Source: Acidobacteriaceae bacterium KBS 83 (GTDB taxonomy: Bacteria > Acidobacteriota > Terriglobia > Terriglobales > Acidobacteriaceae). From it: 64,000 nt of DNA. A program made the translations under genes and the position numbers. The notes under the pieces were generated by a model that did not search any database, was not told the DNA's origin, and saw nothing but the letters and a program-made list of their open reading frames with translations. Each line of letters begins with the position of its first letter. Within the stretch, counting starts at the first letter, position 1. The stretch lies in the NCBI GenBank assembly GCA_000381585.1, contig KB906734.1, positions 186,001 through 250,000 of the forward strand. The letters are read 5' to 3'. Positions 52,928-57,596 of the stretch are shown here, piece after piece.

Positions 52928-54232
52928 ATGGCGGAGCTGCGCTATCAGTCCGGGTTTCTGAACGAGTTTGCAACCGAGGCCGAACCGGGCGCGCTGCCCA
53001 TCGGACAGAATGCGCCACAGAAGCATCCGCTGGGCCTCTATGCCGAGCAGTTCAGCGGCACGCCTTTCACCATGCCGCGGGGGCGGAACCGTCGGTCGTG
53101 GCTGTATCGCATTCGCCCCTCGACGGTGCACAAGCCGTACACGCCCACGAGGATACAGCGTCTGATTCGCGGATGGCCGTGCCCGGATGCGGTGACATCG
53201 CCCAATCAGTTGCGCTGGGACCCGGAGCCGATCCCGCCGGGGGCCGTGGACTTTGTGGACGGCATCATGACGCTGGGCGGCAATGGAGATTCCTCGGTCC
53301 AGACTGGCGCCGCGATCCATATCTATGTCGCGACGCGGTCCATGCACAAGCGCTTCTTCTGGAATGCGGATGGCGAGTTTCTGCTGGTGCCGCAGCAGGG
53401 GCGGCTGCTGATCTTTACCGAGCTGGGCAAGATCGAGGTGGGGCCGGGCGAGATCTGTGTGCTGCCGCGCGGACTGAAGTATCGCGTGGAACTGCTGGAG
53501 CACGCGGCGCGAGGCTACATCTGTGAGAACTACGGGCCGCAGTTCCGGCTGCCGGACCTGGGGCCGATCGGCGCCAATGGACTGGCGAACCCGCGTGACT
53601 TTCTGACACCTGTGGCCGCATACGAAAACATCGAAGAGCATGTTGAGGTGATTGCGAAGTACGGCGGCTCGCTGTGGTGCAGCGGCATGGAGCACTCGCC
53701 GCTGAACGTGGTTGGCTGGCACGGCAACTATGCGCCCTACAAGTACGATCTGGCGCACTTCAACACCATCAACACGGTCAGCTTCGACCATCCCGATCCT
53801 TCGATCTTCACGGTGCTGACGGCGCCGAGCGAGATCCACGGCACGGCGAATATCGACTTCGTGATCTTCCCGCCGCGCTGGATGGTGGCGGAGAACACCT
53901 TCCGTCCGCCATGGTTCCATCGCAACGTGATGAACGAGTTTATGGGGCTGATCTTCGGCCAGTATGACGCGAAGGCCGAGGGCTTCCTGCCGGGGGGCTG
54001 CAGCCTGCATAACTGCATGAGCGGCCACGGACCGGACGCGGAGACATATGAGCGCGCGACCAGCGCGGACCTGAAGCCGGTGCGCCTGGAGAACACGCTC
54101 GCCTTCATGTTTGAGACGCGGTTTGTGGTGCAGACGACGAAGCACGCGCTGGAGAGCCGGACGCTGCAGCGCAACTACTTCGAGTGCTGGCAGGGACTGA
54201 ACCGCCGCTTTACACCGCCCGGACGGCAATGA
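52928..54232 (+). CDS. hmgA: Homogentisate 1,2-dioxygenase
   Basis: A 434-residue iron enzyme that opens the ring of homogentisate to maleylacetoacetate in tyrosine breakdown. Recognised by [19 protein letters not shown] at the N-terminus, [20 protein letters not shown], the cupin core ([20 protein letters not shown]) and the iron/substrate region ([57 protein letters not shown]) with conserved His and Glu. The start has GGGAGAG nine bases upstream. The stop overlaps the ATG of the next gene (ATGA). Confidence 0.97.
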
Positions 54233-55122
54233 CGCCGCCCGCGCTGCGCAGCCTGCTGACGGGGCTGATCGACTACGCGGGGCTGTTTCCGCCTGCGGGA
54301 CTCGGGATGGAAGCGGCGATACGCAACTACGACAGTTACGTGCGCGGCGAGCATGCCTGGATGCTGGGGCGCTTCATTGTGCCGGCGGCGCGGCTGGCGG
54401 AGTATGAAGATACCGTTTGCAATTCCGGAGTGGATGCGAGCGCCTGGAGCCTGAGCGTGCTGGCGACGGCGAGCGATGCCGATGTCGTCGGCCGGTTCAA
54501 TACCGGGGGCGATGAGTCCGGCAGGTGCGGATCCGGCAGCGTCGACGTGGTCGAAATCAAGGCCGCGAATGCGCGCGAGATCCAGGATGCGGCGCGGGCA
54601 TTTGGCGGGAACTACCAGATATATTTCGAGACACCGCCGGACAAATGGCACGCGTTGCTGCAGGCCACAGCGGTGGCGAGGGCAAGGGCAAAGATCCGCA
54701 CCGGTGGCGAGGTGGCGGGCGCCATTCCTGAGGAGTCGCGGGTGCTCGAGTTTCTGCGCATTGCGAGCGAGCGGCGGCTGGCCTTCAAGGCGACGGCAGG
54801 ACTGCATCATCCGCTGCGCGGGATGCAGCGTCTCACGTACCAGACGGAGAGCCCGCAGGCAGTGATGCACGGGTTTCTGAATGTGTTCTGCGCGGCGGTG
54901 CTGCTGTGGCATGAGCCGAAGATGCGTCAGGAGGCTGCGTGGATGCTGGACGAACGTGACGCGGATGCCATTACGATGGACGAATCAATGACCTGGCACA
55001 ACAGCGGTGTGACGTTGACGGCAGAGCAGATTCGCAAGGCGCGCGACAAGTTCGCGATCAGCTTTGGGTCGTGCTCCTTCACCGAACCGATTGAGGACCT
55101 GAGGAAGCTTGGATGGCTGTAA
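54229..55122 (+). CDS. Unknown protein in the homogentisate operon
   Basis: A 297-residue cytoplasmic protein. I do not recognise a characterised family. Visible elements: [19 protein letters not shown] at the N-terminus, [37 protein letters not shown] (about residues 158-175), [15 protein letters not shown] (about 185-200), and a C-terminal [20 protein letters not shown] with [17 protein letters not shown]. The alternating strands and Gly-rich turns suggest an alpha/beta, possibly TIM-barrel, fold. It overlaps hmgA by four bases and fahA by ten, so all three are translated together. It occupies the position where a maleylacetoacetate isomerase would be expected. Function not assigned. Confidence 0.8.
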
Positions 55123-56432
55123 ACACCTGCGATCCCGCGCTGCATAGCTGGGTGAAGTCGGCTGAGGCGGCGGGCACCGACTTCCCTATCCAGAATTTGC
55201 CATTCGGCGTGGCACGCATTCCGGGCGAGGCGACGCCGCGCGTGGTGACGGCGATCGGGGATCGCGCGCTCGACATCCATGCGTTGACCGAAGCGGGTGT
55301 GCTGGCGGGACTGGACGATGCGGTGGTCGCTGCGTGCCGGCAGACGACGCTGAACGCGCTAATGGCGCTGCCGCGGACGGCGCTGCGCACGCTGCGCGAG
55401 CGGCTGAGCGCGCTGCTCGAAGAAGCGCGGGTGGAAACGATGCGGCACCGCGCCGTGCTGGAAGCTGCGCTGAAGCCGCAGAGCGCGGTAGAGATGCTGG
55501 TGCCGGCAGCGATCGGCGATTACACGGATTTCTACGCGTCGATCTTTCACGCGACGAATGTCGGCAAGTTGTTCCGTCCGGAGAATCCGCTGCTGCCGAA
55601 CTATAAGTACGTGCCGATCGGCTATCACGGACGCGCTTCTTCGATTGTGCCGAGTGGCACCGCGGTGCGACGGCCGCGGGGGCAGATGGCGGGCGCGGCA
55701 GGTGAGGCACCCACTTTCGGGCCGAGCCGCCTGCTGGATTACGAGCTGGAGGTGGGCGCGTTCGTAAGCAAACCGAATCCGCTGAGCGAACCCGTGGGCA
55801 TCGATGAAGCACGCGAGCATCTGTTCGGACTGTGTTTGCTGAATGACTGGTCGGCGCGCGATATCCAGAGCTGGGAGTATCAGCCGCTGGGACCGTTCCT
55901 GGCGAAGAGCTTTGCGACGACGGTGTCGCCATGGGTGGTGACGCTGGATGCGCTGGAGCCGTTCCGCGTGCCGGCGTTTGCGCGATCCGAGGAGGATCCT
56001 GTGCCGCTTCCCTATCTGATCGGCGGGGACGATCAACGGCGCGGCGGCTTCGAGGTGCGGCTCGAGGTGCTGCTGGAAACACCGCGCATGCACCAGGCGG
56101 GCGAGGCGCCGTTTCTCTTGAGCCGCAGCAACCTGCGCGAACTTTACTGGACGCTGGGCCAGATGGTGGCGCACCACACCAGCAACGGATGCAATCTGCG
56201 GACGGCCGACCTGTTGGCGACGGGGACGGTATCGGGTGCAGCGACGACGGCGCGTGGATGCCTGCTGGAGATCACGGCGCGCGGCGCGCAACCCGTGGTG
56301 CTGCGCAATGGGGAGACGCGGAAGTTTCTGGAGGATGGGGATACGGTGATCCTGCGCGGGTGTTGCGAACGCGAGGGCGCGGTGCGGATTGGATTTGGGG
56401 AGTGCCGGGGGACTGTGCTGCCTGCGCGGTGA
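55113..56432 (+). CDS. fahA: Fumarylacetoacetase
   Basis: A 439-residue hydrolase that splits fumarylacetoacetate to fumarate and acetoacetate, the last step of tyrosine degradation. Family motifs: IGDYTDFYASIFHATNVGKL (catalytic His and metal Asp), PNYKYVPIGYHGRASSIV, LLDYELEVGAFVSKPN (metal Glu), LLNDWSARDIQSWEYQPLGP and FLAKSFATTVSPWVV (metal Asp, Lys). The length fits the family. It overlaps the upstream unknown gene by ten bases. Confidence 0.97.
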   Translation: MAVNTCDPALHSWVKSAEAAGTDFPIQNLPFGVARIPGEATPRVVTAIGDRALDIHALTEAGVLAGLDDAVVAACRQTTLNALMALPRTALRTLRERLSALLEEARVETMRHRAVLEAALKPQSAVEMLVPAAIGDYTDFYASIFHATNVGKLFRPENPLLPNYKYVPIGYHGRASSIVPSGTAVRRPRGQMAGAAGEAPTFGPSRLLDYELEVGAFVSKPNPLSEPVGIDEAREHLFGLCLLNDWSARDIQSWEYQPLGPFLAKSFATTVSPWVVTLDALEPFRVPAFARSEEDPVPLPYLIGGDDQRRGGFEVRLEVLLETPRMHQAGEAPFLLSRSNLRELYWTLGQMVAHHTSNGCNLRTADLLATGTVSGAATTARGCLLEITARGAQPVVLRNGETRKFLEDGDTVILRGCCEREGAVRIGFGECRGTVLPAR

Positions 56433-56440
56433 TACTTAGC

Positions 56441-56869
56441 CTACTGAAGGTCTGGCATCCAGAATGGCACCGGCCGGGCCCAGTAGATGACTTCGCCCGG
56501 CTTGGCGGTTGCGGTACTTCTCCCGCAGCGGTTGGTTGGCACCACGCCTTCTTTCACCGCTCTCTCAACTGAGATTTCTGAAATCGGGCCATTGCAATCA
56601 ATGAAGGGAACACGGTACGGCTCCGAACCCTTCTTTGGGCCACCGAGCATCATAAAGTTCGTCGCTCCAGCCGGAATCGTGACTCTCTTTGTGCCGTCAT
56701 TTCCCAGGCTGAGAATCGACACCTTGGAAGAGAGATTCCATTCGATCGTGAAGTTTTCGCTCCTGAAAGGCTTTCCAGAGTCGGCGTTGAGGACATGGAA
56801 AACCAAGCTTTGCGCACGAGCCATTGTTGCCAGGAACAGGAACGCCAATCCAAGCACGAAGATTCTCAT
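56441..56869 (-). CDS. Small secreted protein, tandem paralogue A
   Basis: A 142-residue exported protein. Signal peptide RIFVLGLAFLFLATMARAQ. The mature part shares its layout with the neighbouring gene: FHVLNADSGKPFRSENFTIE, a basic-then-Gly segment, a CNGP motif, then KPGEVIYWARPVPFWMPDLQ at the very end. Two Cys may form a disulphide. No known family. The ATG at 56869 is the likely start. Confidence 0.75.
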   Translation of the reverse strand: MRIFVLGLAFLFLATMARAQSLVFHVLNADSGKPFRSENFTIEWNLSSKVSILSLGNDGTKRVTIPAGATNFMMLGGPKKGSEPYRVPFIDCNGPISEISVERAVKEGVVPTNRCGRSTATAKPGEVIYWARPVPFWMPDLQ

Positions 56870-56942
56870 GGCTATATTGTCGTCCTCATCGGCGATTCGC
56901 TTCAGGGCTGTCTCATCCGTCCGCTCTTGCAGCGCAGATAGC

Positions 56943-57437
56943 TTACTGAAAATCGGGCTTCCAGAGCGGCAGTGGCCGGGCCCAGAAGACGATCTCACCG
57001 GGACTTGCCTGCACCGTGCGCGTGTTGCATTCGTTGTGCGCTACGAAACCCTTGCGGATGGCCTGCTGGACGGGAACCGCGATGGTGGGGCCGCTGCAAC
57101 TGAAGAAGGCGAGGCGGTTGGGATCGCCGTAGTCCTTAGTGCCGGGCTTCATGGTGAAGTTTGCGCTGCCGACCAGGATGTCCATGGTGCCGCGGCCCTT
57201 GCCGCCGACATAGACCAGCGATTCTTCGGCATCGGCGTCCCATTCGATCTGCACGTTCTGGTGGCTCATCGGGTCGCCGGTTTCCGCGTTAATGAGACGA
57301 ATGATCAGGCGGTTTGCACCGGCGGTGCTTAGACCGGACTTTGAATCGGCTGATGCCACGTTCGAAAGGATGGTCGCGGAGATGACAAGCATCGTCGCGA
57401 GAAGGGTCGTCCTGGTTCTGGTTGGCGTTTGACCCAT
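56943..57437 (-). CDS. Small secreted protein, tandem paralogue B
   Basis: A 164-residue exported protein. Signal peptide TLLATMLVISATILSNVASA. The mature part mirrors its neighbour: RLINAETGDPMSHQNVQIEW, a CSGP motif, VRKGF-like stretch, a second Cys (ECNTRT) and SPGEIVFWARPLPLWKPDFQ at the end. Conserved ends and spaced Cys mark the pair as a tandem duplication. 73 bases separate the two genes. Function unknown. Confidence 0.78.
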   Translation of the reverse strand: MGQTPTRTRTTLLATMLVISATILSNVASADSKSGLSTAGANRLIIRLINAETGDPMSHQNVQIEWDADAEESLVYVGGKGRGTMDILVGSANFTMKPGTKDYGDPNRLAFFSCSGPTIAVPVQQAIRKGFVAHNECNTRTVQASPGEIVFWARPLPLWKPDFQ

Positions 57438-57596
57438 GGCGGTTCGTCTCACAGCGCGCCGAGTGCGTCTGAGTGCGGGGCGCGTCACATCGATGATGCG
57501 ATGGAGACGGCGATTTCTCCGCTCACACGGAAGTGAAAGGGCATCCCCCTGCGGTGGCGCAGCGGTTCACTCTGGGAAGACCCAAAACGGGAAAGC

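Follow-up and report, generated by a model that had tools for sequence, protein, structure and literature searches.

A conserved gene between hmgA and fahA as a candidate glutathione-independent maleylacetoacetate isomerase

Known isomerases and the hmgA-fahA locus

The breakdown of tyrosine and phenylalanine passes from homogentisate 1,2-dioxygenase (HmgA) to fumarylacetoacetase (FahA) by way of an isomerisation, in which maleylacetoacetate is converted to fumarylacetoacetate. The standard enzyme for this step is MaiA, a zeta-class glutathione transferase (GST) described by the family model TIGR01262. For the similar reaction on maleylpyruvate, work from 1985 is said to have described a glutathione-independent isomerisation in Bacillus megaterium. 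MaiA carries out its reaction when glutathione is present (PMC10950700), and a glutathione-free answer to the similar reaction exists in the gentisate pathway, where the maleylpyruvate isomerase is mycothiol-dependent (PMC3937715). A homologue of the mycothiol-dependent enzyme is listed among the genes mapped to the tyrosine/homogentisate pathway of Streptomyces albidoflavus (PMC11012174). A further enzyme that bears on the present case is the class I deoxyribose-phosphate aldolase (DeoC/DERA), which forms a Schiff base on Lys167 and has been evolved to carry out an iminium-type Michael addition (PMC9400869).

The gene described here, gene X, occupies positions 54229-55122 of the plus strand in a stretch of 64,000 nucleotides, the whole of which is called the window. 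It begins with an ATG at 54229, ends with a TAA at 55120-55122 and encodes 297 amino acids (297 codons); sequence, relatives, gene order and a TIM-barrel model together make it a candidate glutathione-independent maleylacetoacetate isomerase. Upstream on the same strand lies hmgA (52928-54232), which NCBIfam TIGR01015 names homogentisate 1,2-dioxygenase with 679 bits against a cut-off of 510.75, and which also matches PF20510/PF04209. Downstream, again on the plus strand, is fahA (55113-56432), named fumarylacetoacetase by TIGR01266 with 554 bits against a cut-off of 375.3. The overlap of gene X with both neighbours, already claimed in the earlier note, is borne out: the start of gene X and the stop of hmgA share the 4 nucleotides ATGA (54229-54232, plus strand), and the end of gene X shares 10 nucleotides with fahA (55113-55122, plus strand), whose start is at 55113. 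With the in-frame GTG at 54184 as its start, gene X would be 15 codons longer, but the ATG at 54229 matches the conserved N-terminus. Identity to the gene X protein is 80% in a genus-mate and 34-45% in 14 other aligned genomes, and the matches are free of stop codons in all 19 genomes that have one, the genome of origin included. Gene X is a real gene: it is conserved in relatives with stop-free matches, and the same gene order with fahA recurs in different phyla.

The gene X protein had no match in Pfam, NCBIfam or PHROG up to E 1, and the identical family test gave 254 bits for a MaiA from Sphingobium. The same note had seen none of the motifs of the glutathione-dependent isomerase MaiA in gene X, and indeed the search up to E 1 yielded no GST match. 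An identity as a zeta-class GST was ruled out on this result, on the lack of a TIGR01262 match and on a model that has a TIM barrel and not the GST fold. The MDMPI/DinB domain of the mycothiol-dependent maleylpyruvate isomerase was likewise absent at the level of Pfam and NCBIfam matches, both from gene X and from its relatives in Priestia, Streptomyces, Rhodococcus, Tsukamurella and Kovacikia. With no match over the cut-off to any family, gene X has none to a thiol-dependent family either. Comparison with the sequences of solved structures, using either the single sequence or a profile, gave nothing credible up to E 10, and among openly licensed literature no title or abstract beginning that was found names the family. 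The family is thus new in the sense that it has no model in Pfam, NCBIfam or PHROG and no name among those titles and abstract beginnings; the reaction itself is already known.

Linkage of gene X to fahA in genomes and plasmids

Gene X was found in 19 of 61 genomes (its own and 60 relatives). The order hmgA-X-fahA is visible in the flanks of 12 of the 19; in the other seven, either contig ends intervene or gene X has as its neighbour fahA, a distant HmgA relative (about 23-26% identity) or both. A scan of species genomes returned at least 571 relatives of gene X from at least 588 matched stretches, and the best 80 of these at least 571 relatives, which the patterns KATAGLHH and DYAG[LT]FPP had picked out, were analysed as loci. 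The titles among the best 80 cover Acidobacteriota, Gemmatimonadota, Planctomycetota (Phycisphaerales and others), Chlorobi, Ignavibacteria, Chloroflexota, Fibrobacteres and Krumholzibacteriota. Downstream of gene X, fahA lies on the same strand and within 0.8 kb in 72 of the 80 loci; this number comprises 70 loci caught by the distance rule and two (L042 and L054) that were recounted where the match ends overlap, and the 80 include two loci with short downstream flanks (L045 and L096). The two genes overlap in 29 of the 70 pairs caught by the rule, and overlap or lie within 30 nucleotides of each other in 46. All eight of the remaining genomes have fahA over the cut-off elsewhere, and at locus L050 it is found 3.5 kb from gene X on the opposite strand.

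A distant relative of HmgA, with about 23-26% identity to the HmgA of the window, often occurs near gene X (L014, L015, L016, L018, L037, L049, L097 and L241). This protein may represent another kind of homogentisate dioxygenase.

Co-inheritance was followed in one set of 149 genomes of the same phylum, each at least 90% complete, which was searched for gene X, maiA, fahA, HmgA and the glutathione synthetase gene gshB. Gene X is present in 25 of the 149 and fahA over the cut-off in 33; both are present in 25, and gene X never occurs alone. Its absence from all 116 genomes without fahA corresponds to a Fisher p of 8.5e-22, a value that ignores kinship among the genomes. The two genes are on one strand and no more than 0.8 kb apart in 21 of the 25 genomes with gene X and about 2.8 kb apart in G196; they are not neighbours in G237, nor in G186 and G210, where they lie far apart on the same contig. 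HmgA, recognised by HgmA_C, is found in 33 of the 149 genomes, 18 of which have gene X. No HgmA_C match is present in seven of the 25 genomes with gene X; in G237, which is among the seven, a distant relative of HmgA lies near the gene.

Eight of the 33 genomes with fahA have HmgA and no gene X, and they yielded no match to maiA or gshB (G035, G139, G224, G184, G192, G232, G240 and G248, seven of the window's own family and one of another). Since such genomes exist, gene X is not required by every user of FahA. In G035, G139 and G224 (loci L183, L184 and L185), hmgA and fahA adjoin with no gene between them, and so the pathway can run, or at least seems to run, without gene X. In genomes of this kind either a further isomerase or a thiol would carry out the step, or FahA would accept the cis form.

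Gene X was also detected in 23 of 72,556 plasmid records, from Streptomyces (11), Priestia (6), Pseudonocardia (2), Rhodococcus (2), Kovacikia (1) and Nonomuraea (1); the 23 include near-identical Streptomyces and Priestia entries. By annotation, coordinates or tblastn, gene X is beside fahA in every one of the 23, and it is annotated as "hypothetical protein" in all 21 records that carry annotation. Of the six Priestia regions two were read, and one of the cassettes consists of hppD, gene X, fahA, an aminotransferase gene (hisC), a homogentisate dioxygenase gene and an amino acid permease gene, with an Lrp-type regulator upstream. From 4-hydroxyphenylpyruvate on, and considering the plasmid record alone, the isomerisation of maleylacetoacetate is the only step of the pathway without a gene in this cassette, and gene X is the only gene between hppD and the homogentisate dioxygenase without an assignment. 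A plasmid of Tsukamurella tyrosinosolvens carries hppD, homogentisate dioxygenase, a protein without an assignment and fahA. This protein, which tblastn from gene X did not find at E 1e-3, aligns to gene X with 26% identity and keeps the invariant residues. A Sphingobium plasmid has phhA, hppD, hmgA, fahA and maiA in succession, so that maiA stands beside fahA where the others have gene X. The Sphingobium MaiA matches 231 plasmid records, and none of the 60 listed is among the 23 with gene X.

On some Streptomyces plasmids (L231, L233 and L253-L255), the X-fahA pair lies beside regulators, and no homogentisate dioxygenase is annotated nearby. The substrate of gene X might therefore differ there, and is perhaps another ring-cleavage product.

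The standard isomerase and glutathione

The genome that contains the window (6.25 Mb, 99% complete) was searched for a zeta-class GST isomerase, the check that the earlier note had proposed, and no maiA match was found at E 0.001; glutathione synthetase (gshB) had no match either. The single GST_N_3 match in this genome, with 26.7 bits against a cut-off of 22, falls in a frame of 129 residues. It was rejected as a maiA located elsewhere in the genome: the frame is short and by eye glutaredoxin-like; it carries a CPHT motif and leaves no space for the C-terminal domain of a GST.

The same holds for maiA more widely. None of the 149 genomes of the phylum has maiA over the cut-off, and weaker GST-like matches occur in 27 of them, three with gene X. 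Among 45 of the 80 genomes with gene X, picked for spread over phyla and of completeness not given, none has maiA over the cut-off and one has a weak match. With regard to glutathione, gshB is over the cut-off in seven of the 149 genomes, and only one of these, G237, has gene X; in other words, 24 of the 25 genomes with gene X are without gshB at that level, with matches below the cut-off in G112, G148 and G218. G237 combines gene X and gshB with 13 GST-like matches.

The other six genomes with gshB belong to one genus, in which HmgA is present, gene X is absent and fahA does not reach the cut-off. A GST match adjoins HmgA in five of the six, and at the threshold none is found there in G197. 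At L240:4028-4717 and its sister loci from this genus, a GST-like frame lies 57 nucleotides upstream of HmgA; with the Sphingobium MaiA, this frame gave no tblastn match at E 0.01. It may be the genus's own isomerase.

Predicted fold, proposed reaction and alternatives

An alignment of nine proteins (the window protein, one relative, one from a cyanobacterium, one from Priestia and five from actinobacteria) has 24 invariant columns, including D15, E134, K155, R157, K187, T189, H193, N218, R272 and C282. In a wider set of 96 proteins, E134, K155, R157, K187, H193, H194 and C282 are present without exception. The invariance of KATAGLHH and DYAG[LT]FPP in these 96 is partly selected, because the loci were found by those patterns; E134, K155, R157, N218, R272 and C282 lie outside the search patterns and were not selected for.

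The protein is modelled with a pLDDT of 94.8 as a TIM barrel, with predicted strands at residues 14-16, 46-52, 74-78, 104-111, 130-134, 153-157, 186-189 and 276-281. On the alignments and this model, the motif DYAGLFPP (residues 15-22; 54271-54294, like all positions that follow on the plus strand) is placed at the start of barrel strand 1, and the invariant Glu134 (54628-54630) at the end of strand 5. The motif KIRTGG (155-160; 54691-54708), with the invariant Lys155, Arg157, Gly159 and Gly160, falls on strand 6. KATAGLHH (187-194; 54787-54810) covers strand 7 and the loop after it, and its Lys187 is proposed as the Schiff-base lysine or its partner. At the end of strand 8 is GSCSF (280-284; 55066-55080), which contains the invariant Cys282. 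E134, K155, R157, K187, H193 and C282 are all located in or just after predicted strands 5-8, and in the model these invariant polar residues look like an active site. The MDMPI fold is a helical bundle, and gene X differs from it in its predicted barrel as well as in the lack of a family match.

A second model, led by a relative with a Mariniblastus title, reached a pLDDT of 94.1 and is also a TIM barrel. For both models the best structural match is deoxyribose-phosphate aldolase, with a Z of about 15 over 205-225 residues. In a VIA-align comparison of the first model, this aldolase and designs based on it fill the top 32 rows (Z up to 15.5, with an rmsd of 3.4 over 214 aligned residues for the best), and they fill the top 37 with the second (best Z 15.2); rows without telling titles we take to be the aldolase or its designs. 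The top aldolase rows have Z of 13.3-15.5, against 12.7 for the next family with the first model and 12.3 with the second. Foldseek's own scores were weaker, with a single match below E 0.001 and TM-scores of only about 0.4-0.5. Gene X may resemble the aldolase in having lysines on strands 6 and 7: the model places Lys155 in strand 153-157 and Lys187 in strand 186-189, and a non-significant profile alignment pairs them with Lys167 and Lys201 of the E. coli enzyme. Unlike the aldolase, gene X has strands 7 and 8 separated by a long segment (190-275) and belongs to a different operon, and identity in the structural alignments is 9-19%. Kinship in sequence is not significant: hhalign gave P 0.18, and when 105 sequences were used the value was 0.046, where a reversed control had 0.35. 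Descent from the aldolase was accordingly not demonstrated by sequence, given these values and the lack of a DeoC match in Pfam or NCBIfam. The likeness of fold shows no function; the invariant Lys155, Lys187 and Cys282 within a predicted barrel suggest Schiff-base or thiol chemistry.

Because gene X keeps company with hmgA and fahA in distant bacteria and the genomes checked have no maiA, it probably carries out the missing isomerase step. The earlier note had read the gene either as an auxiliary enzyme or as an alternative isomerase of maleylacetoacetate, and the isomerase reading gains support from elimination and association: gene X tracks fahA across phyla and stands where other bacteria have maiA, and its own genome is without maiA. 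We put the probability at roughly 70% that gene X represents a new family of glutathione-independent maleylacetoacetate isomerases unrelated to the zeta-class GSTs, with both activity and substrate deduced from the evidence above. The step would be the one performed by MaiA, and both genes adjoin fahA (maiA in Sphingobium), whereas MaiA has a GST domain and gene X has none. Acting between HmgA and FahA and needing no glutathione, the enzyme would convert the double bond of maleylacetoacetate from cis to trans and so yield fumarylacetoacetate. The diketo acid would be bound in the barrel of deoxyribose-phosphate aldolase type, where the keto group adjoining the double bond might form a Schiff base with Lys155 or Lys187. 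The resulting iminium would weaken the double bond; Cys282 or water could then add, the bond rotate and the nucleophile leave, so that a nucleophile within the protein would do what glutathione does in MaiA. This chemistry is a proposal, and the roles of the two lysines and of Cys282 are read from the model and the conservation. The fuller version, in which iminium cis-trans isomerisation in an aldolase-type barrel, with the protein's own cysteine replacing glutathione, is the maleylacetoacetate isomerase of several glutathione-free phyla, is put forward only tentatively.

The association of gene X with fahA cannot tell an isomerase from another enzyme at the same step. Gene X might instead act on an adjacent product or a side product, for instance as a retro-aldol lyase or a tautomerase for by-products of the succinylacetoacetate type, with the isomerisation being spontaneous, thiol-catalysed or skipped by FahA. 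This would fit a predicted fold whose closest match is a C-C lyase and in which strands 6 and 7 each carry a lysine, the eight of 33 fahA genomes that lack both gene X and maiA, and the X-fahA pairs with no annotated homogentisate dioxygenase nearby, as well as the seven of 25 gene X genomes with no HgmA_C match. We nevertheless regard it as unlikely, in that gene X is the sole gene without an assignment in the run of pathway genes on one Priestia and one Tsukamurella plasmid, and accompanies fahA as maiA does in Sphingobium. A repair enzyme for side products would also be expected beside maiA, and no genome with both genes was seen over the maiA cut-off; this is a weak argument, because none of those genomes reached that cut-off.

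It is less probable still that gene X isomerises maleylacetoacetate with a small-thiol cofactor such as bacillithiol or mycothiol, as MaiA does with glutathione, and not with its own lysine or cysteine. The gene does occur in Priestia and in actinobacteria, which are users of bacillithiol and mycothiol (PMC4360819), and the mycothiol-dependent maleylpyruvate isomerase sets a precedent (PMC3937715). The presence of gene X in groups said to use different thiols nevertheless argues against one fixed cofactor, its protein has no match over the cut-off to any thiol-dependent family, and the invariant Lys155, Lys187 and Cys282 offer an alternative within the protein. A non-catalytic helper of HmgA or FahA, serving in assembly, channelling or stability, would account for the overlap of gene X with both genes, and HmgX of Aspergillus fumigatus, a tyrosine-cluster protein that once lacked an assignment, turned out to be a helper of HppD (PMC3203155). 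That role is very improbable for gene X, which is also found away from fahA and whose invariant polar residues, lying within predicted strands 5-8 or directly after them, have the look of an active site.

If gene X is indeed the isomerase, the missing enzyme of tyrosine and phenylalanine breakdown would be named for many bacteria that seemingly do not use glutathione there. These would include Acidobacteriota, Gemmatimonadota, Planctomycetota, Priestia, Streptomyces, Rhodococcus and others; gshB was searched in the phylum of the window, and the groups outside it are not known to make glutathione. Hundreds of proteins without an assignment would acquire a function, and one more reaction would prove to be served by two unrelated enzymes. 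The enzyme might possibly also show in nature the kind of iminium catalysis to which deoxyribose-phosphate aldolase has been evolved (PMC9400869).

Beyond fahA, the window contains on its minus strand two adjoining genes for small proteins without a known function (56441-56998 and 56943-57488), which share 37% identity over 128 residues. By their sequences, they are apparently a tandem duplication.
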